Assembly: GCF_003008615.1 (NCBI RefSeq)
Contig: NZ_CP027657.1
Location: 5,456,001-5,520,000, forward strand
Origin: Pseudomonas mendocina
GTDB taxonomy: Bacteria > Pseudomonadota > Gammaproteobacteria > Pseudomonadales > Pseudomonadaceae
Length of the DNA stretch: 64,000 nucleotides
Direction of reading: 5' to 3'
In this document: positions 43,218 to 59,625 of the stretch, piece after piece
How positions within the stretch are numbered: position 1 is the stretch's first letter
Layout of the letters: the number at the start of each line of letters is the position of its first letter
The notes under the pieces: model-generated
What the model was told of the DNA's origin: nothing
What the model saw: only the letters and a program-made list of their open reading frames with translations
Database searches by the model: none
Program-made: the position numbers and the translations under genes

Positions 43218-44147
43218 ATGCGCGGATCCGAATTTGCTGAGCTAAAAGCCTTCGTGGCCATCGTCGAACGCCAAAGCTTCGCCCGCGCAGCAGAGCATCT
43301 GGGTCTCTCGCCCTCCGCGCTCAGCCAGACCATTCGGCAACTCGAAACTCGCCTTGGCACACGCCTGCTCAATCGCACCACCCGCAGCGTCGCGCCCTCG
43401 ACGAGTGGCGAACAGCTCTACAACCGCATTGCTCCCTTGTTTCGAGAGATGGCTGTTGCCGTCGCTGAAGCCAGTGAGGCAACAGGGCAGATAAGCGGAA
43501 CGCTTCGTATCAATACGCCAGGGATCGCCGCCAGAACCCTCATCGCCCCCCGGCTGGCACGCTTCCACCAGGCATACCCTGATGTGCTGCTCGACATCGT
43601 GGTCGACGATGCACTGGCCGATATCGTGCTTGGCCGTTTTGATGCGGGCATCCGTATGGGTGGCCGGCTGGAGAAGGACATGGTGGCCGTCCGCCTCACC
43701 CCGGATCTGAACATGGTCGCCGTGGCATCTCCGGATTACCTCGCACATCGAGGCACACCCCAGTCACCTGCCGAGTTGCAGGATCATGCCTGTATCAACT
43801 GGCGACTGCAGATGGACGGCAGGCCCTATCGCTGGGAGTTCCAGGAACGGGGACAGCCGCTGGAAGTGGCGGTCGATGGCCCCGTCGTCACCAATCACCC
43901 CGACATAGGCATCGCTGCCGCTCTACAAGGGCTCGGCATTGCCTATCATTTCGAGAGAGAAGCCGTGGGTGAGCTTCTGGCCCAGGGACGACTGATCCAG
44001 GTCCTTGCTGACTGGTCGATCTCGCGTCCAGGGCTGTTCCTCTATTACCCGAATAGACAACACCGGCCAGCCGCCCTCGGTGCATTCATCGACTGTCTAT
44101 TGGATCGCAACCTGTTCGATCAGCCCTGCTCCGCGTCCCCTCGATGA
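43218..44147 (+). CDS. LysR-family transcriptional regulator
   Basis: 309 residues. N-terminal HTH (ELKAFVAIVERQSFARAAEH, LSQTIRQLETRLGTRLLNRT) and a C-terminal effector-binding domain. It is of the group often placed opposite small oxidoreductase operons. It lies 102 bp from the SnoaL-like gene, divergent. The likely target is the SDR/SnoaL pair. Confidence 0.87.
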   Translation: MRGSEFAELKAFVAIVERQSFARAAEHLGLSPSALSQTIRQLETRLGTRLLNRTTRSVAPSTSGEQLYNRIAPLFREMAVAVAEASEATGQISGTLRINTPGIAARTLIAPRLARFHQAYPDVLLDIVVDDALADIVLGRFDAGIRMGGRLEKDMVAVRLTPDLNMVAVASPDYLAHRGTPQSPAELQDHACINWRLQMDGRPYRWEFQERGQPLEVAVDGPVVTNHPDIGIAAALQGLGIAYHFEREAVGELLAQGRLIQVLADWSISRPGLFLYYPNRQHRPAALGAFIDCLLDRNLFDQPCSASPR

Positions 44148-44290
44148 TAAGCGCAAGGCAAAGGGCGCGGCGGTAGCTTTTGAGCGCTGGTTTTACTGTC
44201 GACACCGTAACGCGGCCGAACTTAATTCCTGGCCATGGACTGTTGTTAGCCGATAGCGTCCGGTCGAGATAGGCAGAAATCGGCCATTAA

Positions 44291-44500
44291 CTAGCACCCT
44301 TCGAAACAGATGTTGCGCGTATCAATACATTCCTGTCTGGCTTCTGGGCTGTTAGCTGTATTCATGCAGGCCCCATAATTAAGGTTGCAGTGTTGCTGGC
44401 AGCTATTTTCTGCTGCTTCATCGGTGAAATTAGCTTGCTTATTCATGCCTACTGCACAGCCAGCAATGAGTATTGCAAAAAAAATAGCTGATGGCTTCAT
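44291..44500 (-). CDS. Small cysteine-rich lipoprotein, unknown
   Basis: 69 residues from ATG 44500, coupled to the upstream exported-protein gene by an ATGA overlap (44497-44500). A signal segment MKPSAIFFAILIAGC ends in a lipobox (IAGC). The mature part has six more cysteines, spaced so as to suggest disulfides (SCQQHCNLNYGAC, CIDTRNICFEGC). Base composition is markedly more AT-rich than the surrounding genes. I recognise no family. Confidence 0.6.
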   Translation of the reverse strand: MKPSAIFFAILIAGCAVGMNKQANFTDEAAENSCQQHCNLNYGACMNTANSPEARQECIDTRNICFEGC

Positions 44501-45078
44501 GTTTTTATACATTCACCACTCCACCTTGCAGGGTCAAAGCTGTGGAATTCCTTGCTGTAGTTGCTATTCGGTTGAACAGTTGCAATCTCGACAGAATGTA
44601 ATTGGCGACGCTCAAATTGCTCTTTAAAAACCCGACATTCATAGCGTACCGGTCGATTGCTCTGGTTTTTAATCAGCAGCACTCCGATATTCGCAAATGA
44701 ATCTTTATTCTTAACCACTGCTGAAGTTGGGCCAGTAGGGGGCGAATATGGATTGTCGACGCCCTCGGGGGGAGGATAGGCAGTATAAAAATCTTCTTCA
44801 CTCAACCCACTCCCACCATCGTACTTAGATTCGCAGCTTCCCTGCTGATTGGGGTTGTTGAATGTATAGCTATACTCACCATTAGCTCTCACAACATTTT
44901 TCGACACGCACTTAGCCCAGCATGAATTATTCGTGCGCGCGTGCTTATTTGCCTGTAGATTATAAAACCAACAAGCTTTAGCTACTGTCGTCCCCTTGCC
45001 AGTAATATCTGTTCCACCAAAAGCAACTACTGGGACTGCCAATGAAGTAGACAGCAAGAGTATTGAAAACCTCCTCAT
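44497..45078 (-). CDS. Exported cysteine-containing protein, unknown
   Basis: 193 residues from ATG 45078, with GGGAGAG upstream. The signal peptide ends near VVAFGGT. The mature protein has seven cysteines, a low-complexity YPPPEGVDNPYSPPTGP linker in the middle and a C-terminal strand-rich part. Base composition is AT-richer than average and rare codons are frequent, pointing to horizontal transfer together with the small lipoprotein gene it overlaps. No family is recognised. Confidence 0.6.
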   Translation of the reverse strand: MRRFSILLLSTSLAVPVVAFGGTDITGKGTTVAKACWFYNLQANKHARTNNSCWAKCVSKNVVRANGEYSYTFNNPNQQGSCESKYDGGSGLSEEDFYTAYPPPEGVDNPYSPPTGPTSAVVKNKDSFANIGVLLIKNQSNRPVRYECRVFKEQFERRQLHSVEIATVQPNSNYSKEFHSFDPARWSGECIKT

Positions 45079-45457
45079 GCTTCTCTCCCTGAAGAATGGA
45101 TGTGGGAAGCAGTTATATAATTTCTCTAGATACATTGCTCTTAAATTGTGTGTCGCTGCGGCACGGAAAAAACTCAAGCGCACGAATTAAGATAGCCCAT
45201 TTTTTAAGCCCTGCAACTGCACTCAACAACAGCACGGTCAACTATGAAAGACAGATACAAAAGGGCTGTCTATGCTAAAGCAGTGCCGTTGTACCGATCC
45301 ATGCGGGGGGATTGGTCGATAGCGGCCAGCCGGCCGTTGTCACACGCGGCCTCTGGCAGGGCACTGCCTAGTCACACAAACTGCTCACAGTCACAACCGG
45401 GTATGAAGGCGGCACTGCTTTTTCCGAAAGCGGATTGCTAACCACTCACTGCCTGCC

Positions 45458-45595
45458 CTAACAAGACGCTCCTACCAACCGACTCCGACGATCCATGGCC
45501 ACCGCGACAATAGCCATGAGGATGACGAGGGTGTAGGCGAAAAGTCCCAAGTTGATGCCGAGGATCAGTTTCTCGGAGCCGTCGCTGAGTACCAT
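45458..45595 (-). CDS. Putative single-span membrane small protein or gene remnant
   Basis: 45 residues. A hydrophobic segment, GLFAYTLVILMAIVAVAM, followed by positively charged DRRSR, fits a single membrane helix with its C-terminus in the cytoplasm. The frame remains open for about ten codons upstream of the ATG, so it may be the remains of a longer membrane protein. There is no clear ribosome-binding site. Low confidence. Confidence 0.3.
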   Translation of the reverse strand: MVLSDGSEKLILGINLGLFAYTLVILMAIVAVAMDRRSRLVGASC

Positions 45596-45711
45596 CGAAC
45601 CACCGTAGCTAGCACCAGTAACTCAGTAAAAAACCGCCAATCACGAACACCGTTAGCCAGCTTGCGGGGAATGCTCAGGCAGCGACAACCCTGGCCAATG
45701 GAGCCCAGCAT

Positions 45712-46653
45712 TCATGGTCGAGGCCTGACAAAACGCTGCTCCAGGACTTCCTTGCCCCATTGCGCGCCTGGCCGCTCCTCTGCCAATACGAAGTTGCGTG
45801 CTTCATAGAGATGGCGTGCGGCGTGCAGTCCAGAGAAGGTCCATAGGTGCGTTTCAGTGAAATTCCGTTCATCGACGAACGACAGGGCCGCGTCCAGCAG
45901 CTTTTTCCCCACCCCACCGCCACGGGCCTCATCGGAGAGAATGAACCAGCGCAAATGCGCTACGTTCTCGCCCATGTCCTGGCCATCGATGGCCACGGAA
46001 CCTACGATCTGGCCATCGAGACACGCCGTCCAGATGGCATTTCCTGGGTTTTCCAGGCGATTGCAAAACTCGGCGAGCCCGCTCGCCACTACGGACTCGA
46101 AGCGCTGGCCGAAACCTGACTCGCGTGAGTAATACAGCGCATGCATGTCCGTGATACGGGCGATGATGCCTGGTCGGTATCCCCGCACGATCTCGATATT
46201 GAGTGAACGATCAGGGGTGCCCGACGTGATATCGAGCGCCTGGGTATAAAGCCGCATGCCCGCGAGTACAAGCTGGCCCTCGCCAGGTTTCAACCGCTCC
46301 AGAGCGGCAATGACCTGAGCGCGGGCGAAGTCGTGGATTGCAGCCACACGCTGCTTACCCGCAGCGGTCAGAGAGAGCATCTTGACGCGGCCATCGTCCT
46401 TCCCAGGCGTCTCCTGCAGCTCACCGGACGCCACCAACTTGCGCAGCATACGGCTCACGCTGGACTTTTCGAGTCGAAGCCGAGCACCGAGATCACGCGC
46501 CGTGATCTCTCCTTGTTCGATCTCGATCAGGGCATGCACGGCAGACGGCGAGAGGTCGGTTCCTGCAAAGTCGCCCCCCATGAATCCAAGCTCGCGAACC
46601 ATTGTTCGAGAGATCGCGCGAATTTCTTCAACCAGGTACTTATCAGCGTGCAT
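45712..46653 (-). CDS. MarR-type HTH and GNAT acetyltransferase fusion protein
   Basis: 313 residues from ATG 46653 (GGAGG about 8 bases upstream). Residues 1-145 form a MarR winged helix (ITARDLGARLRLEKSSVSRM, RKLVASGELQETPGKDDGRV). Residues about 155-310 form a GNAT fold with the acetyl-CoA loop LSDEARGGGVGKKLLDAALS. This two-domain layout is common in proteobacteria, with unknown acetyl acceptors. A GTTG-N7-CAAC palindrome just upstream could be its own operator. Confidence 0.87.
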   Translation of the reverse strand: MHADKYLVEEIRAISRTMVRELGFMGGDFAGTDLSPSAVHALIEIEQGEITARDLGARLRLEKSSVSRMLRKLVASGELQETPGKDDGRVKMLSLTAAGKQRVAAIHDFARAQVIAALERLKPGEGQLVLAGMRLYTQALDITSGTPDRSLNIEIVRGYRPGIIARITDMHALYYSRESGFGQRFESVVASGLAEFCNRLENPGNAIWTACLDGQIVGSVAIDGQDMGENVAHLRWFILSDEARGGGVGKKLLDAALSFVDERNFTETHLWTFSGLHAARHLYEARNFVLAEERPGAQWGKEVLEQRFVRPRP

Positions 46654-46695
46654 CCCAAGGCCTCCGCAATAATGGATGCACGTTACAACCAATAA

Positions 46696-46710
46696 GTTGC
46701 TTAGTACAAC
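46696..46710 (-). promoter_or_regulatory. Possible MarR operator
   Basis: GTTGCTTAGTACAAC is an interrupted palindrome (GTTG-N7-CAAC) 43 bases before the MarR-GNAT start, in an AT-rich stretch where the promoter should be. Spacing and size suit MarR-type dimers. Confidence 0.35.
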
Positions 46711-46836
46711 AAAATTCAGACATGTGCCTTCGCTGAGGCCTGGGCACAGACTCGCTGCAAGGAAGGGCTGAAAGAAAAACCACCTGAGCGCCTGATGCCG
46801 ATCAGATAAACGTAGTGTCTGGCACGCATAGCCTTT

Positions 46837-46916
46837 GTAGGGTGTCGCGGGGCCGCCCAGACCGTGTGCACCGAGATGCTGGCGCCACGACCATTGGTGC
46901 GCACAGCGCACCCTAC
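46837..46916. repeat. REP-like inverted repeat, GTGCGC family
   Basis: A degenerate left arm GTAGGGTGTCGCGG and an intact right arm GGTGCGCACAGCGCACCCTA. Confidence 0.55.
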
Positions 46917-47117
46917 GTAACCTTATCCTGACGCTTAAGTGACTGGCATTAACCTGAGCGCCCTACTCCTGGGCGTCCTCGGGGTACTGCTCTGCACTTC
47001 ACAGCGCGGATCATCTCTCGGTGCGCGCGTCCGCTACAGGTCGAAATGCACGCCCATGGCGTGGCAGCTTGTAGCCGATAGCCGCCAGGCTTCTGACGGT
47101 GCCCATGCACAAACGAA

Positions 47118-47143
47118 AGCCCCCGGCCTCGCGACCGGGGGCT
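47118..47143 (-). terminator. Rho-independent terminator of the encapsulin operon
   Basis: AGCCCCCGG and CCGGGGGCT pair over 9 bp with an 8-base loop. On the minus strand the stem is followed by TTCGTTTG. It lies 18 bp after the cysteine desulfurase stop. Confidence 0.75.
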
Positions 47144-47160
47144 CGTTCATGGCTGAGGGT

Positions 47161-48936
47161 TCAGCGTCTGCGCGCCAGACGCTGCACGGTATCGACCAGC
47201 AGATCCACTTCACCAATGGTGTTGTAGAACGCCAACGACGGTCGCACCGTGGCCTCGACCCCGAAGCGGCGCAGGATCGGCTGCGCGCAGTGGTGGCCGG
47301 AGCGTACGGCGATGCCCTCGCGGTTGAGGGCGGCGCCGACTTCCTCGGTGCGGTAGCCGTCGAGCACGAAGGACAGCACGCTGGCCTTGTGCGCCGCGGT
47401 GCCGATCAGGCGCAGGCCAGGGATGGCCGACAGACCACGGGTGGCGTACACCAGCAGGTCATGCTCGTAGCGCTGGATGTTCTCCAGCCCCAGACGCTCG
47501 ACGTATTGCAACGCCGCCCCCAGCCCCACCGCATCGGCGATGTTGCCGGTGCCGGCCTCGAAACGCGCAGGCGGCCCCTGGTACACCGTCTTCTCGAAGG
47601 TGACGTCGGCGATCATGTTGCCGCCGCCCTGCCAGGGTGGCAGTTGCTCGAGCAGATCGCGCTTGCCGTAGACCACGCCGATACCGGTGGGGCCGAAGAT
47701 CTTGTGTCCGGAGAACACCAGAAAATCGGCATCCAGCGCCTGCACGTTGACCCGCAGGTGCGAGACCGACTGTGCGCCATCCACCAATACCTTGGCACCC
47801 ACCGCATGCGCCAGGCCAATGATCTCGGCTACCGGCGTCACCGTACCCAGGGCGTTGGAGACCTGAGTGATGGAGACCAGCTTGGTGCGCGGGCAGAGCA
47901 GCTTGGCGTATTCCTCAAGAATGATCTGCCCCGTGTCGTCCACCGGAATCACCCGGATCTTCGCGCCCACTTCGGCCGCCAGCTGTTGCCAGGGGACGAT
48001 GTTGGCGTGGTGCTCCAGGTGGGAAACGATGATTTCGTCCCCCGCACCGATGAACTTGCGGCCGAAGGTGTTGGCGATCAGGTTGATGCCTTCGGTGGCG
48101 CCACGCACGAAGATGATCTCCTCCTCCGAACGTGCACCGAGAAAGCGTCGCACCGTGCTCCTGGCACCTTCGTAGGCATCCGTGGCACGCGCCGCCAGTT
48201 CGTGCGCGGCGCGGTGGATGTTGGAGTTCTCGTGCTCGTAGAAGTAGCTGATGCGCTCGATCACCTGGCGTGGCTTCTGCGTGGTGGCGGCATTGTCGAA
48301 CCACACCAACGGCTTGCCATTGGCCCGCTCCTGGAGGATGGGAAAGTCACGACGCACGGCGTTGACATCGAAGCTGCCGGTAGTCTGTGGCTGGCCGGAT
48401 GCCTGCGGCGCCTTCTCCAGACGCGGTGCCGATCCCTGGTCGAGGAAGTAGAACTGCCCCGCTCCGCTCTGCACTTGCGCAGGTGTCGATGTCGTGCTGC
48501 GTGACTCGCCCAGCAGCGATTGCAGCACCTGGGCCAGCTCGTCGCCACCCGGCAGGCCATCGCTGCGCGCAGCGACGCGATCCTCGCGCGTTGCAGAATC
48601 ACTGACGCCGGGTGCCGGCAGGTCACTGAAGTAATAGCCAGAGGGGGCAGCCGCACCACCGGCACCCGGTGGCTGCACGATCGCAGCACCCGGATAGACC
48701 TGGGGAATGGCCGCCGTATAGGCCTGCGGCGAACCCAGATCCAGACCATCGAGGGTGCCGGCCGGTGCGGTCGCGGTCTGCGGCGCTTCATGGGCGGTCA
48801 GGCTGGGCGCCTCACCGCCGGCACGCGGCACCTCGCCCGGTTTGGCGGCGAACAGCTCATTGGCCAGACGCGCCAGGCTGGCGAGATCCGGCAGGCCGTC
48901 AGCCTGGGGCTCAGCGGTAAGCAACTGGGTAGTCAT
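47161..48936 (-). CDS. Encapsulin cargo cysteine desulfurase (family 2A, SufS-like with N-terminal targeting domain)
   Basis: 591 residues, about 185 longer than SufS. Residues 188-591 are a group II cysteine desulfurase: HHANIVPWQQ with the substrate histidines, PLP lysine K412 in FSGHKIFGPTG, and catalytic C550 in RSGHHCAQP. The enzyme takes sulfur from L-cysteine as a persulfide, giving alanine. Residues 1-187 are proline/alanine-rich and probably disordered, with short conserved-looking motifs (LPDLASLARLANELFA, SGYYFSDLPAPGV, GQFYFLDQG). In family 2A encapsulin systems such an extension directs the enzyme into the shell. The gene overlaps the shell gene by 26 bp and is the last of the operon. 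The identity is strong by sequence and neighbour. Confidence 0.93.
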   Translation of the reverse strand: MTTQLLTAEPQADGLPDLASLARLANELFAAKPGEVPRAGGEAPSLTAHEAPQTATAPAGTLDGLDLGSPQAYTAAIPQVYPGAAIVQPPGAGGAAAPSGYYFSDLPAPGVSDSATREDRVAARSDGLPGGDELAQVLQSLLGESRSTTSTPAQVQSGAGQFYFLDQGSAPRLEKAPQASGQPQTTGSFDVNAVRRDFPILQERANGKPLVWFDNAATTQKPRQVIERISYFYEHENSNIHRAAHELAARATDAYEGARSTVRRFLGARSEEEIIFVRGATEGINLIANTFGRKFIGAGDEIIVSHLEHHANIVPWQQLAAEVGAKIRVIPVDDTGQIILEEYAKLLCPRTKLVSITQVSNALGTVTPVAEIIGLAHAVGAKVLVDGAQSVSHLRVNVQALDADFLVFSGHKIFGPTGIGVVYGKRDLLEQLPPWQGGGNMIADVTFEKTVYQGPPARFEAGTGNIADAVGLGAALQYVERLGLENIQRYEHDLLVYATRGLSAIPGLRLIGTAAHKASVLSFVLDGYRTEEVGAALNREGIAVRSGHHCAQPILRRFGVEATVRPSLAFYNTIGEVDLLVDTVQRLARRR

Positions 48937-49843
48937 GGTATTTGTCGACCTCTACGTCATCGAGTACGGCCAGGGCATCTTCGGTCAGCACCGCCAGCGA
49001 GCAGTACAGCGAGATCAGGTAGGAAGCGATGGCGTTGCGGTTGATCCCCATGAAGCGCACCGACAGCCCCGGGCTCTGCTCGCCGGCCACGCCCGGCTGG
49101 TACAGGCCGATCACGCCCTGGCGCTTGTCGCCGACGCGCAGCAGCAGGATCTTGGTCTTGCCGTCGTCATCGAACGGCACCTTGTCCGATGGGATCAACG
49201 GCAGGCCGCGCCAGGTGAGGAACTGCGAACCGAACAGGCTGACGGTGGGTGGCGGCACGCCGCGACGGGTGCACTCGCGACCGAAGGCGGCGATGGCCAG
49301 CGGGTGGGCGAGGAAGAACGCCGGCTCCTTCCAGACCTTGGCGATCAGCTCATCGAGGTCGTCCGGGGTGGGTGGGCCGCCCAGGGTGGAGATGCGCTGG
49401 GCCGGGTCGACGCTGGACAGCAGGCCATACTCGGGGTTGTTGATCAGCTCGTTTTCCTGACGCTCCTTGATGGTCTCGATGGTCAGGCGCAGTTGCTCGC
49501 GAATCTGGTCGTGCGGGCTGCTGTAGAGGTCGGAGACACGGGTGTGCACGTCGAGGATGGTGGTCACCGCGTTGAGGAAATACTCGCGCGGCGCGTCTTC
49601 GTAGTCGACGAAGGTCTGCGGCAACACCGCCTCGTCGCGCTGGGAACAGGCGACCTGCACGTTGAGCGGGTTCTTCACCTTGTTCAGGCGGAAGATGCCG
49701 GCCTCCACCGGCGTCCACTGCAGCAGGTGTACCAGCCAGCGCGGGGTGATGGTGGAAAGTTGCGGTACGGTCTTGGTCGCGTTCGCCAGTTGCCGGGCGG
49801 CACTGTCGCCGAGGGCAAGGCGTACATCCTGATTGTCAGCCAT
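48911..49843 (-). CDS. srpI: Family 2A encapsulin shell protein (SrpI-like)
   Basis: 310 residues. The sequence closely follows SrpI of Synechococcus elongatus: ARQLANATKTVPQLSTITPR, RWLVHLLQWTPVEAGIFRLN, NPREYFLNAV-like segment (APREYFLNAVTTILDVHTRV) and FFLAHPLAIAAFGRECTRRG. Family 2A shells have an HK97-phage-like fold and assemble into hollow particles of about 25 nm. AGGAG lies 7 bases before the ATG. Downstream lies the cargo enzyme, upstream a serine acetyltransferase and a rhodanese, which is the known family 2A set. In published work such compartments have been tied to sulfur storage. Confidence 0.95.
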   Translation of the reverse strand: MADNQDVRLALGDSAARQLANATKTVPQLSTITPRWLVHLLQWTPVEAGIFRLNKVKNPLNVQVACSQRDEAVLPQTFVDYEDAPREYFLNAVTTILDVHTRVSDLYSSPHDQIREQLRLTIETIKERQENELINNPEYGLLSSVDPAQRISTLGGPPTPDDLDELIAKVWKEPAFFLAHPLAIAAFGRECTRRGVPPPTVSLFGSQFLTWRGLPLIPSDKVPFDDDGKTKILLLRVGDKRQGVIGLYQPGVAGEQSPGLSVRFMGINRNAIASYLISLYCSLAVLTEDALAVLDDVEVDKYHDYPVAYR

Positions 49844-49947
49844 GGAACACTCCTGTTGCGGTTTTCAAGGCGCGCAGAATCCCGCACGGTCGTGATCGCA
49901 CGACCGTCGTGTGGATGCTGTGCAGGGGTTGCGGCGAACGCCGCGGA

Positions 49948-50925
49948 TTAACCGGTGTTGCTGGCCTGGTGCTGCAGGCTGGCCTGGGTCACGTTGCTGC
50001 CGGGCGGCACACTGCGCGTCAGCCAGACGTTGCCGCCGATGCTGGAGCCCTTGCCGATGGTGATGCGTCCCAGGATGGTGGCGCCGGCGTAGATCACCAC
50101 GTCATCCTCGACGATCGGGTGACGCGGCTCACCCTTGAGCAACTGCCCGCTCTCGTCAGCCGTGAAGCGCTTGGCGCCAAGGGTCACGGCCTGGTAGATG
50201 CGCACATGGTTGCCGATGATCGCGGTCTCGCCGATCACCACCCCAGTGCCGTGGTCGATGAAGAAGCTGTGGCCGATCTGCGCGCCGGGATGGATGTCGA
50301 TACCGGTGGAGGAATGAGCGATTTCCGCACCGATACGTGCCAGCAATGGCAGGCCGGCGCGGTACAGGTGGTGGGCCAGGCGATGGTGGATGACGGCGAG
50401 GATACCCGGGTAACACAGCAGCACTTCGTCGACGCTACGCGCCGCCGGGTCGCCGGCATAGGCGGCCAGCACGTCGCTGTCGAGCAGGCGGCGCAGGCCC
50501 GGCAGCGCAGCGGCGAAATCGCGCACGATAGCGATGGCCTCGGCCTCGCTGTCTTTCTCCACGTCGCCCTGCTGACGCGCGGCATAGCGCAACTCCAGGC
50601 GCACCTGCGACAGCAGGCTGTTGAGCGCACTGTCGAGGGTGTGGCCGACGTAGAAGTCCTCGCTTTCCTGGCGCAGGTCGCTGGGCCCGAGGCGCATGGG
50701 GAACAGTGCTCCGCAGAGGCCTTCGAAGATCGCCTCCAGCGCCTGTCGCGAGGGCAACTCGCGGCTGCCCAGTTCACGGTTACGGCCAGTGCGGCTGCGC
50801 CAGTCGCTACGCGCCTCACGCAATTGCTCGACGATCTGCTCGAGTTGCCAGTTGACGCGCGGCGCTCGGCTGTCAGCCAGATGCGGGTTGAGGTATTCCA
50901 GGTCTGCAATGTGCTGGTGGGGCAT
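49948..50925 (-). CDS. epsC: Serine O-acetyltransferase, EpsC-type
   Basis: 325 residues. The C-terminal left-handed beta helix has hexapeptide repeats and the catalytic segment FFIDHGTGVVIGETAIIGNH (H225). The N-terminal half is the alpha-helical domain of bacterial SATs. The enzyme makes O-acetylserine, the precursor that accepts sulfide to give cysteine. It is 104 bp before the shell gene in the same direction. The long N-terminus (about 300-residue class) is that of the SATs linked to family 2A encapsulins rather than of CysE. It supplies the cysteine that the cargo desulfurase consumes. Confidence 0.92.
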   Translation of the reverse strand: MPHQHIADLEYLNPHLADSRAPRVNWQLEQIVEQLREARSDWRSRTGRNRELGSRELPSRQALEAIFEGLCGALFPMRLGPSDLRQESEDFYVGHTLDSALNSLLSQVRLELRYAARQQGDVEKDSEAEAIAIVRDFAAALPGLRRLLDSDVLAAYAGDPAARSVDEVLLCYPGILAVIHHRLAHHLYRAGLPLLARIGAEIAHSSTGIDIHPGAQIGHSFFIDHGTGVVIGETAIIGNHVRIYQAVTLGAKRFTADESGQLLKGEPRHPIVEDDVVIYAGATILGRITIGKGSSIGGNVWLTRSVPPGSNVTQASLQHQASNTG

Positions 50926-51000
50926 TTCGATTACTCAGAAAAACGCTGCGATGCCTGAGGCCGCGAGCACCGCTCGCGCCTCCCGTTGGCGGTCAATGGC

Positions 51001-51522
51001 TCAATCCTGTACCCAGGGCAGGTTCCAGTGCCGCCAGCCACCGCTCTCGCCCCGCTGGCGCTGGGCATCCAGATCGCCTTCGAAACCCTCGAGCACATTG
51101 AATACCTCGGAGAAACCAGCCGCCGTGGCCGCAGTCGCTGCCGCTGCCGAGCGCTTGCCGCTGCGGCACAGCAGTACCACCGGCTTGTCGCGGGGCACCT
51201 TGGTTTCCAGCTCACGCAGAAAGCGCGGGTTCTTGATCAGTGCCGGGCCGTTCTGCCAGGGCACATGCAGGCTGTTCGGCACATGGCCGACGAATTTCAG
51301 CTCCTCGAAAGTGCGCACATCGACCAGGGTCGCCTCGCCCGCCTCGACCAGTGCCCAGGCCTCCGGCGGATAGAGGCTGCCGGCATAGATGACGCCTTGT
51401 TCATGGCCACGAATGCGAGCCCGTTCGAACAACTCGTCGCTGGATACGGCCAGCACGCTGCGCAGGTCGGTGGGACGCTGGATGGAAACGGCAGGCTGAG
51501 AAGCGATGTCTGCGGACGGCAT
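51001..51522 (-). CDS. Single-domain rhodanese, encapsulin operon
   Basis: 173 residues. One rhodanese domain with the active-site loop LLCRSGKRSAAAA (C119) and VDVRTFEELKFVGHVPNSLH. A 50-residue N-terminal extension (SSDELFERARIRGHEQGVIY) is unusual for simple rhodaneses. AGAGGATC lies just before the ATG. First gene of the operon and 75 bp before epsC. A rhodanese often accompanies family 2A encapsulins and could pass sulfane sulfur to or from the compartment. Confidence 0.88.
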   Translation of the reverse strand: MPSADIASQPAVSIQRPTDLRSVLAVSSDELFERARIRGHEQGVIYAGSLYPPEAWALVEAGEATLVDVRTFEELKFVGHVPNSLHVPWQNGPALIKNPRFLRELETKVPRDKPVVLLCRSGKRSAAAATAATAAGFSEVFNVLEGFEGDLDAQRQRGESGGWRHWNLPWVQD

Positions 51523-51579
51523 TAACAGATCCTCTAGTTGGCTAGTCGGGGCAGGCAGTCGGTCTGCGGCGCCGCGTTG

Positions 51580-51645
51580 AGTCCTACTCTATGCCTAGCG
51601 CATATATCCAAAAAATAATTAATTATTTTATTTGCCAAACAAAAA
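51580..51645 (-). promoter_or_regulatory. Promoter of the encapsulin operon
   Basis: On the minus strand, an A+T block (51609-51640, TAATTAATTATTTTTT type) is followed about 20 bases later by TAGAGT (complement of 51586-51591), about 60 bases before the rhodanese start. This repeats the layout before tcyJ (29014-29066), including the TAGAGT hexamer, and suggests control by the same sulfur-starvation activator. Confidence 0.5.
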
Positions 51646-51662
51646 GGAATATCAAATAAAGC

Positions 51663-51721
51663 GTAGGAGGCACCATGCGCACCAAAAGATCGGCATTCCC
51701 GGTGCGCACGGCGCACCCTAC
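51663..51721. repeat. REP-like inverted repeat, GTGCGC family
   Basis: GTAGGAGGCACCATGCGCACC and GGTGCGCACGGCGCACCCTAC, in the space between two minus-strand operons. Confidence 0.65.
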
Positions 51722-51737
51722 GGGAAAGCGTAGAGCC

Positions 51738-51796
51738 GTAGCCCGGATGAAATCCGGGGAGAACATCGGTGAAATCCCGGATTGCATCCGGGCTAC
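51738..51796. repeat. REP-like inverted repeat, GTAGCCCGGATG family
   Basis: GTAGCCCGGATGAAATCCGG and CCCGGATTGCATCCGGGCTAC. Its right end forms the stop codon of the DUF971 gene, so the repeat borders the gene directly. Confidence 0.7.
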
Positions 51797-52062
51797 AGTC
51801 CGCGCAGGTAGTCCCAGGGGTAGATACCGCGGTCGTGGCCGTCGCTGAAGATCAGTTGCACGCCATATCCCTGAGCGTTGATGGCCTGCACGCGGATGTC
51901 GATTGGTGCCAGATCGATACGCCCGTGCAGGCGCGCCGCGCGGCACTGCGAGCAGGGGCAGGCCGCGCGCAAACGCGCGTGGGCAAGCTCGCTGCGGCTG
52001 CCGTCCGGCCAGTCCAGCAGAAGCTGCCCAGCGGCGCTGCGCAGGGAGGTTGGCGCTATCAC
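51793..52062 (-). CDS. DUF971-family protein (GBBH-like N-terminal domain)
   Basis: 89 residues. Start is GTG 52062, overlapping the HEAT-gene stop (GTGA), a coupled start that is easy to miss. The DUF971 pattern is present: LLLDWPDGSRSELAHARLRA, ACPCSQCRA and the C-terminal DGHDRGIYPWDYLRGL. The domain also occurs at the N-terminus of gamma-butyrobetaine hydroxylases and with Fe-S and Mrp proteins, and its CxC/CxxC cysteines (CPCSQC) may bind metal. Last gene of the GntR-AprA-like operon. Function unknown. Confidence 0.82.
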   Translation of the reverse strand: MIAPTSLRSAAGQLLLDWPDGSRSELAHARLRAACPCSQCRAARLHGRIDLAPIDIRVQAINAQGYGVQLIFSDGHDRGIYPWDYLRGL

Positions 52063-53042
52063 CGGTCTGTACCCTGTAACTGCGCGAGGGCGATACGCAC
52101 GGCCTTGCGCACTTCCGGGTCGCCGTCGTTTTCCGCAGCCTGCAGAGCCGGTACCGCGCTTTTGTCGGCCAGCTCGCCCAGGGCCAGGGCCGCCTCCTTG
52201 CGCAGGTTGCTGATGCTGTGGCCGAGCAATTCCACCAGTGCCGGCAAGGCAGCGGCATGGCGCAACTTGCCCAGCGCTCGGGCGGCGCGCAGGCGTACCT
52301 GCCAGTAGCCATCGCCAAGAGCCTCGATCAGCGCTGCACCGGCTTCGTTCAGGCCGACCTTGCCAAGGGTGGTGGCGGCCTCCTCGCGCACCTGCCACTC
52401 ACGGTCGTGCAGGGCTGCGCGTAGTGCGGGCAGGACGCTGGCATCACGGGCCAGGCCCAAGGCACCGGTAGCCGCTCGGCGCACTTCGGTATCGGCGTCG
52501 TCACTGGCCAGGCGCGCCAGGGCCGGCAGCGCCTCATGCTGCTTGAGCCAGCCGAGAATGCCGACCGCCTCGCGACGGACGAAGGCGTCGCTGTCGTCCA
52601 GCGCCTCGAGCGCCTGCGGTGCGGCGTCGGCCAGGCGCAACTCGCGCAACGCACGCAGGGCGCTGGCGCGAACGAAGGCATCGGCATGCCTGGCCCAGGG
52701 CAGGATCACCCGCCCGGCTTCGGCGCTTTTCAGCTCGCTCAGGCTCTGCGCGGCGGCGCTGCGTACACGCTCATCGGCATCGGCCAGCGCGGCGCACAAG
52801 GCTGCAACCACCTCGGGCTCCTCCCAGGCCTCGAGCAGGCGCGCCGCCTCGGCGCGTACAGCAGCGTCGGCATCCTCACGCAAGGCGCGGGCAAGCCAGG
52901 GCAAGGCGTCCGGATCTTCCAGATCGGCCAGGTCGATCAGTGCGATACGGCGGATGCCGGCATCGTCAGCGGCCAGACGCGGCAGCAGGTCGAGAATGTC
53001 GGGGTTTTCGGTGGTCAGGTCAGCAAGGTTAAGGTCGGTCAT
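52059..53042 (-). CDS. HEAT-repeat protein
   Basis: 327 residues, made almost wholly of HEAT/PBS-lyase-type repeats of about 31 residues. Repeats such as DADAAVRAEAARLLEAWEEP, DADERVRSAAAQSLSELKSA and DDSDAFVRREAVGILGWLKQ recur from residue 25 to the C-terminus, giving an acidic helical solenoid. There is no signal peptide. It overlaps the ATPase gene by four bases at its start and the DUF971 gene at its end. A scaffold or adaptor role within the operon's enzyme system is inferred. Confidence 0.88.
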   Translation of the reverse strand: MTDLNLADLTTENPDILDLLPRLAADDAGIRRIALIDLADLEDPDALPWLARALREDADAAVRAEAARLLEAWEEPEVVAALCAALADADERVRSAAAQSLSELKSAEAGRVILPWARHADAFVRASALRALRELRLADAAPQALEALDDSDAFVRREAVGILGWLKQHEALPALARLASDDADTEVRRAATGALGLARDASVLPALRAALHDREWQVREEAATTLGKVGLNEAGAALIEALGDGYWQVRLRAARALGKLRHAAALPALVELLGHSISNLRKEAALALGELADKSAVPALQAAENDGDPEVRKAVRIALAQLQGTDR

Positions 53043-53896
53043 AGGGCGATTCGCAATGTCGGATGATCGGTGGTCGGCAGGCCCAGCGGCGTCAGGCGCG
53101 GCAGTTCACGGCCGTCCTCATGGCGCAGCAGCTCCAGGCAGTGGCGCTTGAGGTGGGTGAAGCCGGGGCTGGTGAGCAGGCTGGCATTGCGCGGGCGTGG
53201 GAATTCCAGGCGCAGGTCTTCGATGAAGCGGCCGGGACGCGGGCTCATCACCAGGATGCGGTCGGCGAGAAACAGCGCCTCGTCGATATCATGGGTAACG
53301 AACACCACGGTGGTGCGGATGCGCGTCCAGATATCCAGCAGCAGTTCCTGCATGCGTGCACGAGTCTGCGCATCCAGGGCGCCGAAGGGTTCATCCATCA
53401 GCAGCAGGCGCGGCCGGTTGATCAGAACGCGGGCGATCTCGGCGCGTTGCTGCATGCCGCCAGACAGTTGATTGGGCCAGCGCTGGGCGAAATCCTGCAG
53501 GCCGACCAGGCGCAGCATCTCCAGCGCCTGCTCGCGCCTTTGCATCTTGCCGATGCCCTGCATCTTCAGGCCGAAAGCGACGTTGTCCAGCACGCTGCGC
53601 CAGGGCAACAGGGTGTGGTGCTGGAAGACCATGCCGCGCTGCGGCGATGGCCCTGCTACGGCATTGCCATCGACCAGCAGGCTGCCGCCGCTGAGCTGCA
53701 GGTGCCCGGCCAGGGCGCCGAGCAACGTCGACTTGCCGCAGCCGGAAGGCCCGAGAATGCAGACGAACTCGCCGGGTTCGATGGCGAAGTCCAGACGTTG
53801 CACCGCCTCGAAGGCCTCGCGACCCTGACCAAGGCGAATGGACAGTTGTCGGCCATCGATACGCCCCGGCGTTGGAGCCTGTTGGTAGACACTCAT
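53039..53896 (-). CDS. ABC transporter ATP-binding protein, SsuB/TauB type
   Basis: 285 residues. Walker A GPSGCGKS, signature LSGGMQQRAEIARVL, Walker B LLLMDEPFGALD and FVTHDIDEALFLADRILVMS are intact. It overlaps the permease gene by four bases (53893-53896). Third component of the importer coded between the ferredoxin-like and HEAT genes. Confidence 0.9.
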   Translation of the reverse strand: MSVYQQAPTPGRIDGRQLSIRLGQGREAFEAVQRLDFAIEPGEFVCILGPSGCGKSTLLGALAGHLQLSGGSLLVDGNAVAGPSPQRGMVFQHHTLLPWRSVLDNVAFGLKMQGIGKMQRREQALEMLRLVGLQDFAQRWPNQLSGGMQQRAEIARVLINRPRLLLMDEPFGALDAQTRARMQELLLDIWTRIRTTVVFVTHDIDEALFLADRILVMSPRPGRFIEDLRLEFPRPRNASLLTSPGFTHLKRHCLELLRHEDGRELPRLTPLGLPTTDHPTLRIAL

Positions 53897-54675
53897 GTGC
53901 GCTTGCCTCCGCTCTGGTACCAGGGTGTGGCGAAGGCGCCGAGGCGCCGCACCAGCGTGCTGCTGACCATGCCAAGCACGCCGATCAGCAGCATGCCGAC
54001 GACGATGTCCGGGTAGTTCTGCAGGGTGTAGGACTCCCAGGTGTAGTAGCCGATGCCGAACTGGCCGGAGATCATCTCGGCGGTAACCAGGCAGAACCAG
54101 GAGGTGCCCATGCCGATGGCCAGGCCGGTAACGATGCTCGGCGCGGCGCCGGGCAGCACCACTTCGCGCAGGATGGCCAGCCGCCCTGCCCCGAGGCTGC
54201 GCGCCGAGGCCACCAAGCGCGGGTCGACACCTTCGACGCCATGCACGGTGTTAAGCAGGATGGGAAACAGCGCGCCGGTGAAGGTGATGAAGATCATCGA
54301 CGCCTCGGACGACGGGAACATCAGGATCGCCAGGGGAATCCAGGCCACGGCGGGAATCGGCCGCAGCACTTCCAGTGGCGGCAACAGGCTGTCTTCGGCC
54401 CACTTCGAGCGGCCGATGGCCAGGCCCAGCAGCACGCCTGCAACGGCGGCAGCCAGATAACCGGTGAACACCCGCCCCAGGCTGCTGCCGAGGTGGTCGG
54501 CGAGCTTGCTCGATTGCAACAGGTGCCAGGCGGCATCCAGTACAGCGGCCGGGGTCGGCACGTAGGTGAAAGCGATCAGCCCCAGATCCAGGCGCTGGTT
54601 GGCGGCCACCTGCCAGAACAGCAGGCAGGCGGCCAGCGAGGCCAGGCGCAGGGGCCAGCGATAGAGCGAGGTCAT
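53893..54675 (-). CDS. ABC transporter permease, SsuC/TauC type
   Basis: 260 residues with about six hydrophobic helices. EVLRPIPAVAWIPLAILMFP and the coupling loop ASARSLGAGRLAILREVVLP belong to the nitrate/sulfonate/taurine family. It lies 132 bp after the binding-protein gene, across a REP element. Confidence 0.9.
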   Translation of the reverse strand: MTSLYRWPLRLASLAACLLFWQVAANQRLDLGLIAFTYVPTPAAVLDAAWHLLQSSKLADHLGSSLGRVFTGYLAAAVAGVLLGLAIGRSKWAEDSLLPPLEVLRPIPAVAWIPLAILMFPSSEASMIFITFTGALFPILLNTVHGVEGVDPRLVASARSLGAGRLAILREVVLPGAAPSIVTGLAIGMGTSWFCLVTAEMISGQFGIGYYTWESYTLQNYPDIVVGMLLIGVLGMVSSTLVRRLGAFATPWYQSGGKRT

Positions 54676-54685
54676 GGCAATCTCC

Positions 54686-54746
54686 GTAGCCCGGATGAAA
54701 TCCGGGAAGAACCGTGCTGCGTTGTCCCGGATTTCATCCGGGCTAC
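54686..54746. repeat. REP-like inverted repeat, GTAGCCCGGATG family, inside operon
   Basis: GTAGCCCGGATGAAATCCGG and CCCGGATTTCATCCGGGCTAC in the 132-bp space between binding-protein and permease genes. Confidence 0.7.
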
Positions 54747-54807
54747 GTCAGGCCCTCTGCCAGCGCCCTTTCGCAGGATCGGAAGGCGGTGGACAGAGGG
54801 CCAGGTC

Positions 54808-56214
54808 TTAGCGGCTGGCCACCAGCTTCTGGTTGACGCCGACGAAGTCCAGCGCTTCGCCGCCGTTGGCCTGGGCGTAGGACTGGGCTTGTTCCTTGAG
54901 CAGGAAGGCGCTCAGCTCACCCTTGCCGTTGCGCACGAACCAGGCCTGGTTGGCCAACAGCTTGAGCCCGCTGTCGGCGGCGTGAGCGTAGATGGCGCGG
55001 ATGTCCTTGCCCTCTTCTTCCAGCGCAGCCAGGGCCTGGAGCGCGGCCTCCGGCGAGGCGTAGCTGCGTACCTTGTCTTCGCCACGTACCCAGATCTGCG
55101 CAACGCGCTTGAAGTCGGTGATCGGCTTGCCGGTGACGGCATCGTTGGCCTTCAGGGCGACCGGCGCGTAGTTGGCCAATGCCTTGTCGTAGTCCACGCC
55201 GGACGCGGCAAAGGCCTGACGCACATAGCGGTCGTCGATGAAGGTATTCAGGTCGAGATCGCGGTTGGTGCGTTTGAGCGTCTTGAGGGTTTCCAGCGCG
55301 CCAGCAACGGCCTTGCGGTACTCCGGCTTCCAGGTCAGGTCACGGGTCTGCAGGCCCAACGGGCCATGGAACAGGTAGTTCACCTCGGCTTCGATGCCGG
55401 TGACCTTCTCGATCAGCAGGCTGTACTTCTCGGGATCGCTGGCCAGCAGTTGGTTGGCTTCGATACCGGCACGCAGATAGGCGACCACCACTTCCGGGTA
55501 CTTCTCGGCGTACTCGGCGTTGACCAGACCACCGTGGAAGGTCGGCGCCTGGGTCTGCGAGCCATCGAAGATCTTGCGGGCGAAGCCGCGGTTGGGGAAC
55601 AGGTCGGCGAAGGGCACGAAGTCGGCATGGGCATCGATACGGTTGCTGCGCAGCGCCGAACCGGCGATTTCCGGAGCCTGGGCGATGATCCGCACGTCCT
55701 TTTCCGGATCCCAGCCCTGGGCCTGGATCGCACGCAGCAGGACGCCATGGGCCGTGGAGGCGAAAGGCACGGAAATGGTCTTGCCTTTCAGGTCGGCCAG
55801 CGACTGCACTGGCGAGGCAGCTGGCACCACGATGCCATTGCCGCTGCCCTTGATGCTGCCGGATAGCACGTTGATCAGTAGGCTGCGTTTACCGGCTTCC
55901 TCATGCGCGACGCCATTGAAGGCGGCGGGGAATTCAGCCATGGCGCCGAAATCCAGCTTGCCGGCAACCATCTCGTTGGTCAGCGGTGCGCCACTGGTGA
56001 AGTTCTTCCATTCGACGACGTATTTGGCGTCCTTGTACTTGCCGTCCTTCGGCAGGTACTTGTCGAGCAGGCCCAACTCGCGGATGAGCAGGCCGCCAGC
56101 GGCGCAGTTGATGGTGGTGTCCTGGGTGCCGATGGCGACCCGGATGGTTTCGGCCGACGCCTGGATGGCGGCGAGTGCCAGCGCAAGGCCGGCCAGGGTG
56201 CTACGCAAGAGCAT
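54808..56214 (-). CDS. ABC substrate-binding protein, NrtA/SsuA-like, unusually long
   Basis: 468 residues, about 130 more than standard SsuA or TauA. Signal peptide ends near IQASAET. The binding-protein core is recognisable in VEWKNFTSGAPLTNEMVAGK, LDFGAMAEFPAAFNGVAHEE and KGKTISVPFASTAHGVLLRA. Extra C-terminal sequence (about residues 340-468) lengthens the second lobe. The gene comes after the ferredoxin and flavoprotein genes. A sulfonate or other sulfur oxyanion is the likeliest ligand by context. Confidence 0.83.
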   Translation of the reverse strand: MLLRSTLAGLALALAAIQASAETIRVAIGTQDTTINCAAGGLLIRELGLLDKYLPKDGKYKDAKYVVEWKNFTSGAPLTNEMVAGKLDFGAMAEFPAAFNGVAHEEAGKRSLLINVLSGSIKGSGNGIVVPAASPVQSLADLKGKTISVPFASTAHGVLLRAIQAQGWDPEKDVRIIAQAPEIAGSALRSNRIDAHADFVPFADLFPNRGFARKIFDGSQTQAPTFHGGLVNAEYAEKYPEVVVAYLRAGIEANQLLASDPEKYSLLIEKVTGIEAEVNYLFHGPLGLQTRDLTWKPEYRKAVAGALETLKTLKRTNRDLDLNTFIDDRYVRQAFAASGVDYDKALANYAPVALKANDAVTGKPITDFKRVAQIWVRGEDKVRSYASPEAALQALAALEEEGKDIRAIYAHAADSGLKLLANQAWFVRNGKGELSAFLLKEQAQSYAQANGGEALDFVGVNQKLVASR

Positions 56215-56336
56215 GGGTGTTCTCCCCTCGAATCATTGAGTGTTGGAATCGTCTCCGCCAGCAGGTGGGCCGGTGGGAAACGAGGGGTGTTGCATCAGGC
56301 GTCCGGTGGTTGGCCGGATGGCGGGTTTTGCTTGTC

Positions 56337-56406
56337 GTAGCCCGGATGAAATCCGGGACCGGTGGATCAAGGTGGCCAGAGCATTCCCGGATTGCATCCG
56401 GGCTAC
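56337..56406. repeat. REP-like inverted repeat, GTAGCCCGGATG family, inside operon
   Basis: GTAGCCCGGATGAAATCCGG and CCCGGATTGCATCCGGGCTAC, with a GTGCGC-type fragment directly after (56427-56450). It fills the 237-bp space between the ferredoxin and binding-protein genes. Confidence 0.7.
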
Positions 56407-56451
56407 GCGCAGGGGCCGTGATATTTCCTAGGGTGCGCCGCGCGCACCGGC

Positions 56452-56697
56452 TCAACGCAGCAGGTAAGGAATCTCCACCTTCACCGCACCGGTCGGGCAG
56501 TCCTTCTCGCAGGGCATGCAGTACCAGCATTCGTCGAAGGCCATGTAGGCCTTCTGCGTGGCCGGGTTGATCGCCAGCAGATCCATCGGGCACACCTCGA
56601 CGCAGACGGTGCAGCCCTTGTCGGCGATGCACTTGTCTTCATCGACGATCACCGGTGCGCTGCTGCGAAAGAAGATTTCCTGGGGTTGATAGGCCAT
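56452..56697 (-). CDS. AprB-like ferredoxin with two [4Fe-4S] clusters
   Basis: 81 residues with eight cysteines in two sets: C23, C29, C32 and C36 (DKCIADKGCTVCVEVCP) and C57, C60, C63 and C67 (ECWYCMPCEKDCPTG). The insertion within the first set and the words VCPMDLLAINPATQKAYMAF and CWYCMPCEKDCPTGAVKV closely resemble the beta subunit of APS reductase (AprB), but the C-terminal AprB tail is missing. It comes 86 bp after the AprA-like flavoprotein gene and probably supplies it with electrons. I find this more likely than a general ferredoxin. Confidence 0.83.
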   Translation of the reverse strand: MAYQPQEIFFRSSAPVIVDEDKCIADKGCTVCVEVCPMDLLAINPATQKAYMAFDECWYCMPCEKDCPTGAVKVEIPYLLR

Positions 56698-56711
56698 GTC
56701 ACGTTATCCAT

Positions 56712-56779
56712 GTAGGGTGGGCTTCAGCCCACCAGGCTGTTCGGTGGGCTGAAGCGGATCACCGCCCGGCCCACCCTAC
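56712..56779. repeat. REP-like repeat, GTAGGGTGGGCTTCAGCCCACC family
   Basis: GTAGGGTGGGCTTCAGCCCA and GGCCCACCCTAC in the gap between flavoprotein and ferredoxin genes. It touches the end of the flavoprotein frame. Confidence 0.65.
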
Positions 56780-56783
56780 GAAG

Positions 56784-58511
56784 TCACGCCGCCGCCTCGG
56801 TCTTCACCCGCAGTCGGTCGTAGGCGCTCTGCTCATCCGCCGCCAGGTCGATCAGGTAAGGCTCGACCGGTTTCTTGAAGCTGGTCATCTCGCCCTGCTC
56901 GTTCTTCTTCAGATGGGCATGGCAGAACCACTCGGCGTCATTGCGCTGCGGGTGGTCGACGCGGTGGTGGTACAGCCCCCAGCGGCTCTCGGTACGGAAC
57001 AACGAAGCGCGCGCGGCCATCTCGGCGCAGTCGCGAATCACGCTGACCTCCAGCGCACGCATCAGCTCGTGCGGGTTGTTGGCCTTGAGCTGATCCAGGT
57101 CGCGCTCGATCTCGGCGAAGCGGGTCAGGCCGATCTCCATCTTCTTGGTCACCTTGGGTGGCTGCAGGTAGTCGTTGACCATGCGCCGCAGCTTGTACTC
57201 CACCTGCGCCGGCGGCAGGCCATGCTCACGCTTGAGCGGGGCATACACCCGCGCCCGCTCGCGCTCGACCTGCGCAGCATCCACCGGGGTGAAGTCGCGC
57301 CCGGCGATGTAGGCGGCGGCGTTGCTACCGGCGAACCAGCCGTAGGTGAAGGCGCCGAGCATGTAGTTGTGCGGCACCGCGGCCATATCGCCAGCGGCGT
57401 ACAACCCCTTGACCGAGGTCTCGGCCTTCTCGTTGACCCATACGCCCGAGGCGCTGTGACCGGAGCAGAAACCGATCTCGGAGATATGCATCTCGACCAT
57501 GCCGGTGCGGTAGTCGGTGCCGCGCCCGGCATGGAACTGGCCGCGACTCGGCCGCTCGTTGCTGTGCAGGATTTCTTCGATGGTCTGGATGGTTTCCTCG
57601 GCCAGGTGGTCGAGTTTGAGGAACACCGGGCCATTCCCGCCTTCGAGTTCCTGGTGGAACTCCCACATCATCTGCCCGCTCCAGTAGTCGCACTCGATGA
57701 AGCGCTCCCCTTTGTTATTCGCGGTGTAGCCGCCCAGCGGGCCGGTGACGTAGGCGCAGGCCGGGCCGTTGTAGTCCTTGATCAACGGGTTGATCTGGAA
57801 GCATTCGAGGTTCGCCAGCTCAGCCCCAGCGTGATAGGCCATGGCATAGCCGTCGCCGGCATTGGTCGGGTTCTCGTACGTACCCATCAGGTAGCCCGAG
57901 GCCGGCAGGCCCAGGCGCCCGGCGGCGCCGCAGGCGAGGATCACCGCCTTGGCGCGGATCACATGGAAGTCCGCCGTGCGGCAGTCGAAGCCCATCACAC
58001 CGTTGACCGCACCGTCGGCGTCGGTCAGCAGACGGGTGGCGATGACGCGGTTGGTGATCTCCACCCGCGCCCGCTTGAGCTGGCGGTACAGTACCTTCTT
58101 GATGTCGTGCCCTTCCGGCATCGGCAGCACGTAGGCGCCCATGTGGTGCACCTTCTTCACCGCGTAGTCGCCGGTCTCGTCCTTCTCGAACTTCACGCCC
58201 CAGCGGTCGAGCTGCTCGATGGTCTCGAAACTCTTGCTGGCATAGGCGTAGACCGCCGCCTGATTGACGATGCCGTCGTTGGCGATGGTGATTTCCTTGG
58301 TGTACTGCTCCGGCGTGGCATGACCGGGAATCACCGCGTTGTTGAGGCCATCCATGCCCATGCTGATGGCACCGCTGCGCTTGACGTTGGCCTTGTCCAG
58401 CAGCAACACGCGCAAGTCGCGGTTGGCCTCCTTGGCCTTGATCGCCGCCATCGGCCCGGCGGTACCGCCGCCGATCACCACCAGATCATATTCGCGTTCG
58501 AGGGTGTTCAT
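56784..58511 (-). CDS. AprA-like/fumarate-reductase-family flavoprotein
   Basis: 575 residues from ATG 58511. FAD-binding GGGTAG at residues 14-19 in YDLVVIGGGTAGPMAAIKAK, then KRSGAISMGMDGLNNAVIPG, very like the RSGAVAQGLSAIN stretch of APS reductase alpha (AprA). A second FAD contact is GLYAAGDMAAVPHNYMLGAF. The fumarate-reductase/succinate-dehydrogenase/APS-reductase flavoprotein family shares this layout, and the following AprB-like ferredoxin favours an Apr-type two-subunit enzyme. It is shorter than dissimilatory AprA (about 650). It probably reduces or oxidises a sulfur compound brought in by the ABC importer. The catalytic residues could not be checked without an alignment. Confidence 0.83.
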   Translation of the reverse strand: MNTLEREYDLVVIGGGTAGPMAAIKAKEANRDLRVLLLDKANVKRSGAISMGMDGLNNAVIPGHATPEQYTKEITIANDGIVNQAAVYAYASKSFETIEQLDRWGVKFEKDETGDYAVKKVHHMGAYVLPMPEGHDIKKVLYRQLKRARVEITNRVIATRLLTDADGAVNGVMGFDCRTADFHVIRAKAVILACGAAGRLGLPASGYLMGTYENPTNAGDGYAMAYHAGAELANLECFQINPLIKDYNGPACAYVTGPLGGYTANNKGERFIECDYWSGQMMWEFHQELEGGNGPVFLKLDHLAEETIQTIEEILHSNERPSRGQFHAGRGTDYRTGMVEMHISEIGFCSGHSASGVWVNEKAETSVKGLYAAGDMAAVPHNYMLGAFTYGWFAGSNAAAYIAGRDFTPVDAAQVERERARVYAPLKREHGLPPAQVEYKLRRMVNDYLQPPKVTKKMEIGLTRFAEIERDLDQLKANNPHELMRALEVSVIRDCAEMAARASLFRTESRWGLYHHRVDHPQRNDAEWFCHAHLKKNEQGEMTSFKKPVEPYLIDLAADEQSAYDRLRVKTEAAA

Positions 58512-59272: not shown

Positions 59273-59277
59273 TTCCA

Positions 59278-59291
59278 CTTGTCATAACAAG
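59278..59291 (-). promoter_or_regulatory. HutC/GntR-type operator before the GntR gene
   Basis: CTTGTCATAACAAG has perfect arms CTTGT and ACAAG around four bases. It lies five bases before the preferred start, inside the 5' leader, where a bound repressor would block transcription of the whole operon. Confidence 0.5.
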
Positions 59292-59380
59292 TTGTAGCAA
59301 GACGATAGCGAGCATAAGCATGAAGGTGGAAATACTTTTATTGCATAAGGTTATGGCGCCAGGAGCAGGTTCGGATTGCC

Positions 59381-59386
59381 GGTATA
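59381..59386 (-). promoter_or_regulatory. Candidate -10 box of the GntR-AprA-like operon
   Basis: TATACC on the minus strand, 12 bases outside the left end of the 50-bp palindrome. It mirrors the TATAAG box on the other side. Confidence 0.4.
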
Positions 59387-59398
59387 CGACTGCACCTC

Positions 59399-59448
59399 TT
59401 ATCTCTAAAAATAATATAAATATTTATTTATATTATTTTTAGAGATAA
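59399..59448. promoter_or_regulatory. 50-bp perfect AT-rich palindrome between divergent sulfur operons
   Basis: Positions 59399-59422 are the exact reverse complement of 59425-59448, 24 bp per arm with a two-base centre, almost wholly A and T apart from two G/C pairs per arm. Each side is followed by a TATA-like box at nearly equal distance (11 and 12 bases). This points to one symmetric activator site serving both the sfnE and GntR operons. Confidence 0.7.
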
Positions 59449-59459
59449 CTCTTAACCGT

Positions 59460-59465
59460 TATAAG
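59460..59465 (+). promoter_or_regulatory. Candidate -10 box of the sfnECR operon
   Basis: TATAAG, 11 bases outside the right end of the palindrome. A start near 59472 would give sfnE a leader of about 280 bases. Confidence 0.4.
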
Positions 59466-59609: not shown

Positions 59610-59625
59610 GATTCAACAATTCGTC

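Follow-up and report, generated by a model that had tools for sequence, protein, structure and literature searches.

Analysis of a 64,000-nucleotide stretch of the Pseudomonas mendocina genome (contig NZ_CP027657.1, positions 5,456,001 to 5,520,000; hereafter the window) revealed a four-gene operon on the minus strand, at 47161-51522, encoding a rhodanese, an EpsC-type serine O-acetyltransferase (SAT), a family 2A encapsulin shell and a cysteine desulfurase (CD) as the putative cargo of that shell. In our view, this operon is likely to act as a sulfur store, situated in this lineage within an island of organosulfur-scavenging genes; most likely, the store would be tied to sulfur starvation and filled by scavenged sulfur. 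This reading is built on shell and cargo matches above dedicated NCBI cut-offs, the conservation of the four genes, loading motifs like those of the Synechococcus elongatus cargo, a second SAT and an extra CD beside other genomic copies, sulfonate genes near shell loci and a conserved element upstream of the operon. It also draws on published work describing the operon type, induction of a homologous system without sulfate and storage as cited there (PMC8346489, PMC8049743, PMC12407261, PMC12140327).

A first-pass annotation had proposed a minus-strand unit of shell, CD, EpsC-type SAT and rhodanese belonging to family 2A, and all four genes were recovered in place by models above their cut-offs. 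The rhodanese (51001-51522), which is the first gene of the operon, matched Pfam PF00581 with 63.8 bits (cut-off 22.2), and a loop CRSGKRS can be read in its sequence. The SAT (49948-50925) scored 164.2 bits with NF041874 (cut-off 150) and 169.2 bits with the cysE model TIGR01172, which is under the cut-off of 210.65. It is a second copy, a separate cysE above cut-off being located at G000:C1:969658-970143. The shell (48911-49843; 310 residues) scored 543.9 bits with the family 2A model NF041162 (cut-off 380), and its sole Pfam domain is SrpI-like (355.8 bits). The family 2B model was also passed (435.2 bits, cut-off 400), over the shared shell part only (profile 211-449), and the shell lacks the cNMP-binding domain of family 2B. 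The CD (47161-48936) scored 909.7 bits with the dedicated cargo model NF041166 (cut-off 800). Its N-terminal extension of about 187 residues, a length given already by the first-pass annotation, fits the beginning of the SufS-like part at residue 188-193 in SufS models, and contains the motifs LARLANELF, YYFSD and FYFLD. At least two YYF/FYF motifs are found in 71 of 78 CDs, and no more than 21 of the 78 conform to a strict pattern of the first loading motif. Residues K412 and C550, which we take to be catalytic, are invariant in an alignment of eight CDs. Counting the operon CD, the genome contains nine matches to PF00266 at E ≤ 0.001.

The shell and CD genes overlap by 26 bp. Just past the CD stop lies a terminator-like stem-loop (47117-47144, minus strand; 12 pairs, nine of them GC, and a T-containing tail), in agreement with the closing terminator that had been proposed; length and place are what support this stem, the scan having given two terminator-like sites against 2.1 in shuffled sequences. 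The same scan detected no minus-strand terminator-like site between the rhodanese and the module of genes that precedes the operon, so that read-through from this module is possible. A scan for sigma-70 promoters over 46900-52100 found none, and an RNA element at the locus was discarded, as no Rfam match reached the gathering score over 44000-60000.

By its predicted gene content, the operon itself is ordinary and has the known make-up of family 2A, with SAT and rhodanese as accessory genes. In a collection of 1281 family 2A operons with CDs, SAT and rhodanese were the most enriched accessory genes (PMC8346489). As relatives we used the best 80 loci of a genome scan, among at least 594 candidate stretches. 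All four genes are present in 71 of these 80 (65 on one strand throughout, six with the SAT inverted), and the nine incomplete loci comprise six flagged at a contig end and three unflagged ones (L010, L066 and L086). Azotobacter vinelandii CA carries two shell loci, L011 with all four genes and L010 without rhodanese and SAT nearby. Within the genus the shell is rare, with 3 of 199 genomes above the shell cut-off and four more with weaker matches. In three genomes of the genus (L005, L006 and L007), a relative of the shell scores 331-336 bits, under the family 2A cut-off, and possibly belongs to family 2B.

Of the 80 best loci, 74 have retained a rhodanese in the vicinity of the shell, as would also be expected if the operon channelled sulfur and did not store it, the shell shielding the CD so that the co-encoded rhodanese alone obtains the sulfur for selected targets. 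Such a role was proposed in PMC8346489. However, later papers cite CD encapsulins as known sulfur stores (PMC12407261, PMC12140327), and we regard channelling as an unlikely function of the operon.

The remainder of the window is rich in genes for sulfur scavenging, including those for SfnB-like enzymes, FMN-dependent monooxygenases, sulfonate-type ABC transporters, a TauD-like enzyme and MsuE, and also for cystine and methionine transporters and D-cysteine desulfhydrase. About fifty sulfur-scavenging genes had been counted around the operon by the first-pass annotation, which is too many: by our tally of library matches, a plausible sulfur role can be assigned to about 39 of the 58 automatically picked gene models, or to 35 when the operon is excluded, two of the 58 (819-1538 and 26303-26725) lying outside every library scan. 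Directly upstream of the operon and on the same strand is the module already mentioned, which consists of genes for a regulator, a flavoprotein, a ferredoxin, a binding protein, an ABC transporter, a HEAT-repeat protein and a GBBH-like protein.

The neighbourhood of sulfonate genes is recurrent yet patchy, and its arrangements differ among lineages. We compared 34 of the 80 loci, from 33 genomes (all those outside Acinetobacter on contigs longer than 100 kb, plus seven from Acinetobacter, with L046 left out and L011 as a second locus from the genome of L010), with 96 control stretches of 20 kb each, drawn at random from the same contigs and no closer than 25 kb to the shell. When the E. coli tau and ssu proteins without TauB and SsuB were used as queries, sulfonate genes were encountered within about 10 kb at 12 of the 34 shell loci and in 7 of the 96 controls (one-sided Fisher test, 2.5e-4), a test that counts related loci as independent and that was designed after the loci had already been inspected. 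Inclusion of TauB gave 13/34 and 7/96, respectively. Three unrelated E. coli genes employed as control queries were not clearly raised (7/34 versus 16/96), and sulfate-transport queries yielded 13/34 versus 21/96 (p 0.05). When genes of the window itself served as queries, a choice that favours relatives of the window and that included a too-long version of the flavoprotein, hits were obtained at 13/34 shell loci and in 15/96 controls. In this latter test, a LysR query that had been included to serve as a control gave more hits at shell loci (9/34 versus 4/96), and a GGDEF control query was lower at shell loci (0/34 versus 10/96). Relatives of this LysR-type gene of the window (43218-44147) lie near the operon at, for example, L013, L018, L032 and L034. 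No report of the sulfonate link was encountered among the titles examined in searches limited to open-licence papers, and the link may be in print elsewhere.

Upstream of the operon, a 42-bp AT-rich element (51610-51651, minus strand) is conserved; 88 bp separate its near edge from the start codon of the rhodanese gene. Its mean column identity amounts to 85% across ten chosen loci of the Pseudomonas/Azotobacter group (six Pseudomonas including the window, two Azotobacter, one Stutzerimonas and one Azomonas), and farther upstream the loci resemble each other far less. With a matrix derived from the nine other loci, the window element scored 67.2, a value that none of 1000 dinucleotide-shuffled versions of the region attained. 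Of 34 loci outside Acinetobacter that had not been used for training, 13 had their best plus-strand site upstream of the rhodanese, when 60 shuffled matrices gave 6.8 on average and 10 at most. For Acinetobacter, the element was rejected, as 11 of 26 loci had their best site upstream of the rhodanese and 7 of the 60 shuffled matrices did equally well. Within the window, the next matrix sites are 59406-59447 (50.0), before the module, which resembles an arylsulfonate operon, and 27910-27951 (34.4), between the genes for MetQ and D-cysteine desulfhydrase. Both outscore 1000 shuffles of their own regions, and for the site before the module column-shuffled matrices reached up to 40.8. Across 800 kb taken from other parts of the genome, four sites reach a score of 20, and the highest of them (33.1) precedes a porin-like open reading frame without evident sulfur role. 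Extension of the element to other sulfur genes of the window is only suggestive. The element would presumably fit a LysR-type activator such as CysB. A CysB site sequence was sought in PMC9023270, the accessible part of which gives none.

A store of this kind might work as follows. The SAT would raise the level of O-acetylserine, which a cysteine synthase encoded elsewhere in the genome could combine with sulfide from scavenged sulfonates or sulfones. The CD, packed within the shell, would then strip the resulting cysteine of its sulfur and retain it there, and the rhodanese might carry sulfane sulfur in or out. Probably, the operon is turned on by sulfur starvation via the conserved element, perhaps by an activator of the CysB kind.

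Several points weigh against such a store. Encapsulation, storage and regulation are predicted for this organism from genes alone. None of the four operon genes encodes a cysteine synthase; the chain from O-acetylserine through cysteine to the shell, as put forward in the first-pass annotation, is hypothetical, and so is the release of sulfur through the rhodanese that it envisaged. PMC8346489 suggests that this protein instead channels sulfur to chosen targets. What held of that earlier sulfur-buffer proposal are the family and a link to sulfur scavenging, which the neighbourhood comparison supports, with the conserved element lying upstream of the operon. The sulfonate link is absent in 22 of the 34 shell loci, and among 19 genus-level groups six go up, two (Azotobacter and a Moraxellaceae metagenome-assembled genome) go down and 11 are tied (Wilcoxon p 0.02 on the eight that differ). 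In a genome-wide search with a sequence model of the element, in which 150 of 284 first-look candidates were scored, the operon's own site alone appeared at E ≤ 10; a genome-wide regulon was therefore rejected, and common regulation with other sulfur genes would be conjectural. In the window, the same model produced two weak partial matches, one of 8.6 bits (E 0.23) and one of 3.8 bits (E 7.7), neither of them at 59406, and the site at 59406 was discarded as a shared site because, in spite of its high matrix score, it is unconserved in three relatives.

The patchiness would also suit an incidental neighbourhood, in which the operon, as an accessory that is mobile or readily lost, came to lie beside sulfonate genes by chance in a few lineages and has no functional tie to them. 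Its rarity within the genus, the 11 tied and two downward groups, the non-independence of loci from one genus and their inspection before the comparison all speak for this explanation, as does the fact that the HEAT-repeat protein of the module occurs in 14 of 57 relatives, all of the same genus, and the shell in two of those 14; in the remaining 12, no rhodanese or SAT was found within about 1.5 kb beyond the HEAT gene. However, the sulfonate genes that adjoin the operon differ from lineage to lineage. The flavoprotein module flanks it in the Pseudomonas loci L009, L013, L016 and L018, sfn/met genes in Serratia, tau genes in Acinetobacter (some also with the flavoprotein module), tau- and ssu-like genes in Curvibacter and a comamonad, and ssu/msu-like genes in HGW-Gammaproteobacteria-11. 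The unrelated E. coli control genes showed no clear enrichment, and we judge a chance neighbourhood to be improbable. That the operon serves to dispose of surplus cysteine imported as cystine, with stored sulfur as a by-product, is suggested by the cystine-type transporter genes and the D-cysteine desulfhydrase of the window but appears very improbable, as the operon SAT would increase the cysteine supply and what induces the S. elongatus homologue is sulfate deprivation, not excess (PMC8049743).

Beyond this genome, proteobacterial family 2A encapsulins might constitute an optional part of the organosulfur-scavenging response, banking sulfur from sulfonates and related compounds under a common starvation activator that acts via the element, the operon having arrived repeatedly and independently beside sulfonate gene sets; we put this forward tentatively, as a possibility that we would not yet favour. 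If the sulfonate link holds, it points to growth on taurine, methanesulfonate or arylsulfonates as the only source of sulfur, with Azotobacter or environmental Pseudomonas as laboratory hosts, for a direct test of the store. Several other bacteria show a similar sulfonate neighbourhood, which merits testing.

All genes of the module that precedes the operon are encoded on the minus strand. Nearest to the rhodanese are a small GBBH-like_N (DUF971) protein (51793-52062; PF06155, 77.2 bits) and the HEAT-repeat protein (52059-53042; PF13646, 213.7 bits). They are followed upstream by an ATPase and a permease of an ABC transporter of the sulfonate/taurine/nitrate kind (53039-54675), for which all named transporter models matched below cut-off, and by an SsuA-like binding protein (54808-56214; TIGR01728, 115.2 bits, below the cut-off of 163.5). 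Further upstream, a 4Fe-4S ferredoxin (56452-56697; PF12838, 36.1 bits) would be AsfB-like by position, and a fumarate-reductase/AprA-like flavoprotein (56784-58511; NF006131, 1144 bits, cut-off 587) would be AsfA-like by context. The name AsfA was not encountered among the 120 listed of 6245 matches to the flavoprotein, which has relatives of 575 residues. A 267-residue N-terminal part first assigned to it was rejected as an out-of-frame reading across the regulator gene; the too-long query had also been used in the locus surveys. The regulator (58508-59278), GntR-like by eye, is an open reading frame missed by automatic gene picking, and upstream of it, at 59391-59456, lies a long AT-rich, near-perfect palindrome in a stretch that is unconserved in three relatives. 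Elsewhere in the window, 24134-25717 encodes a 527-residue protein with a MoeB match limited to the rhodanese part in the stretch shown, and possibly with several rhodanese-like domains. Tripartite tricarboxylate transporter genes (two TctC and one TctA) are located inside the sulfur region at 13184-16986.

Among solved structures, the shell of PDB 8t6r is the closest in sequence to the window shell (589 bits over residues 2-310); we take it to be from Acinetobacter baumannii and to have a sulfur-storage role. The module shares with the asf kit, which Pseudomonas putida S-313 needs for aromatic sulfonates (PMC4267179), a reductase/ferredoxin pair, a binding protein and an ABC transporter, a likeness by description. 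In contrast to that kit, the adjacent regulator looks GntR-like and not of the LysR type, and HEAT and GBBH-like proteins are present. From the family 2A CD encapsulin operons of PMC8346489 the window operon is itself no different, sharing with them a shell without cNMP domain, a CD with an unannotated N-terminus, SAT and rhodanese; sulfonate neighbours go unmentioned in the accessible part of that paper. Although S. elongatus PCC 7942 belongs to another phylum, and packing as well as a sharp rise of shell and cargo in the absence of sulfate were demonstrated there (PMC8049743), whereas both are predicted for the window operon, the window shell matches SrpI of the SrpI/CyD pair (PDB 6x8m) at 514.7 bits over residues 3-305, and the motifs in the CD extension are like the pair described in the S. 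elongatus cargo.

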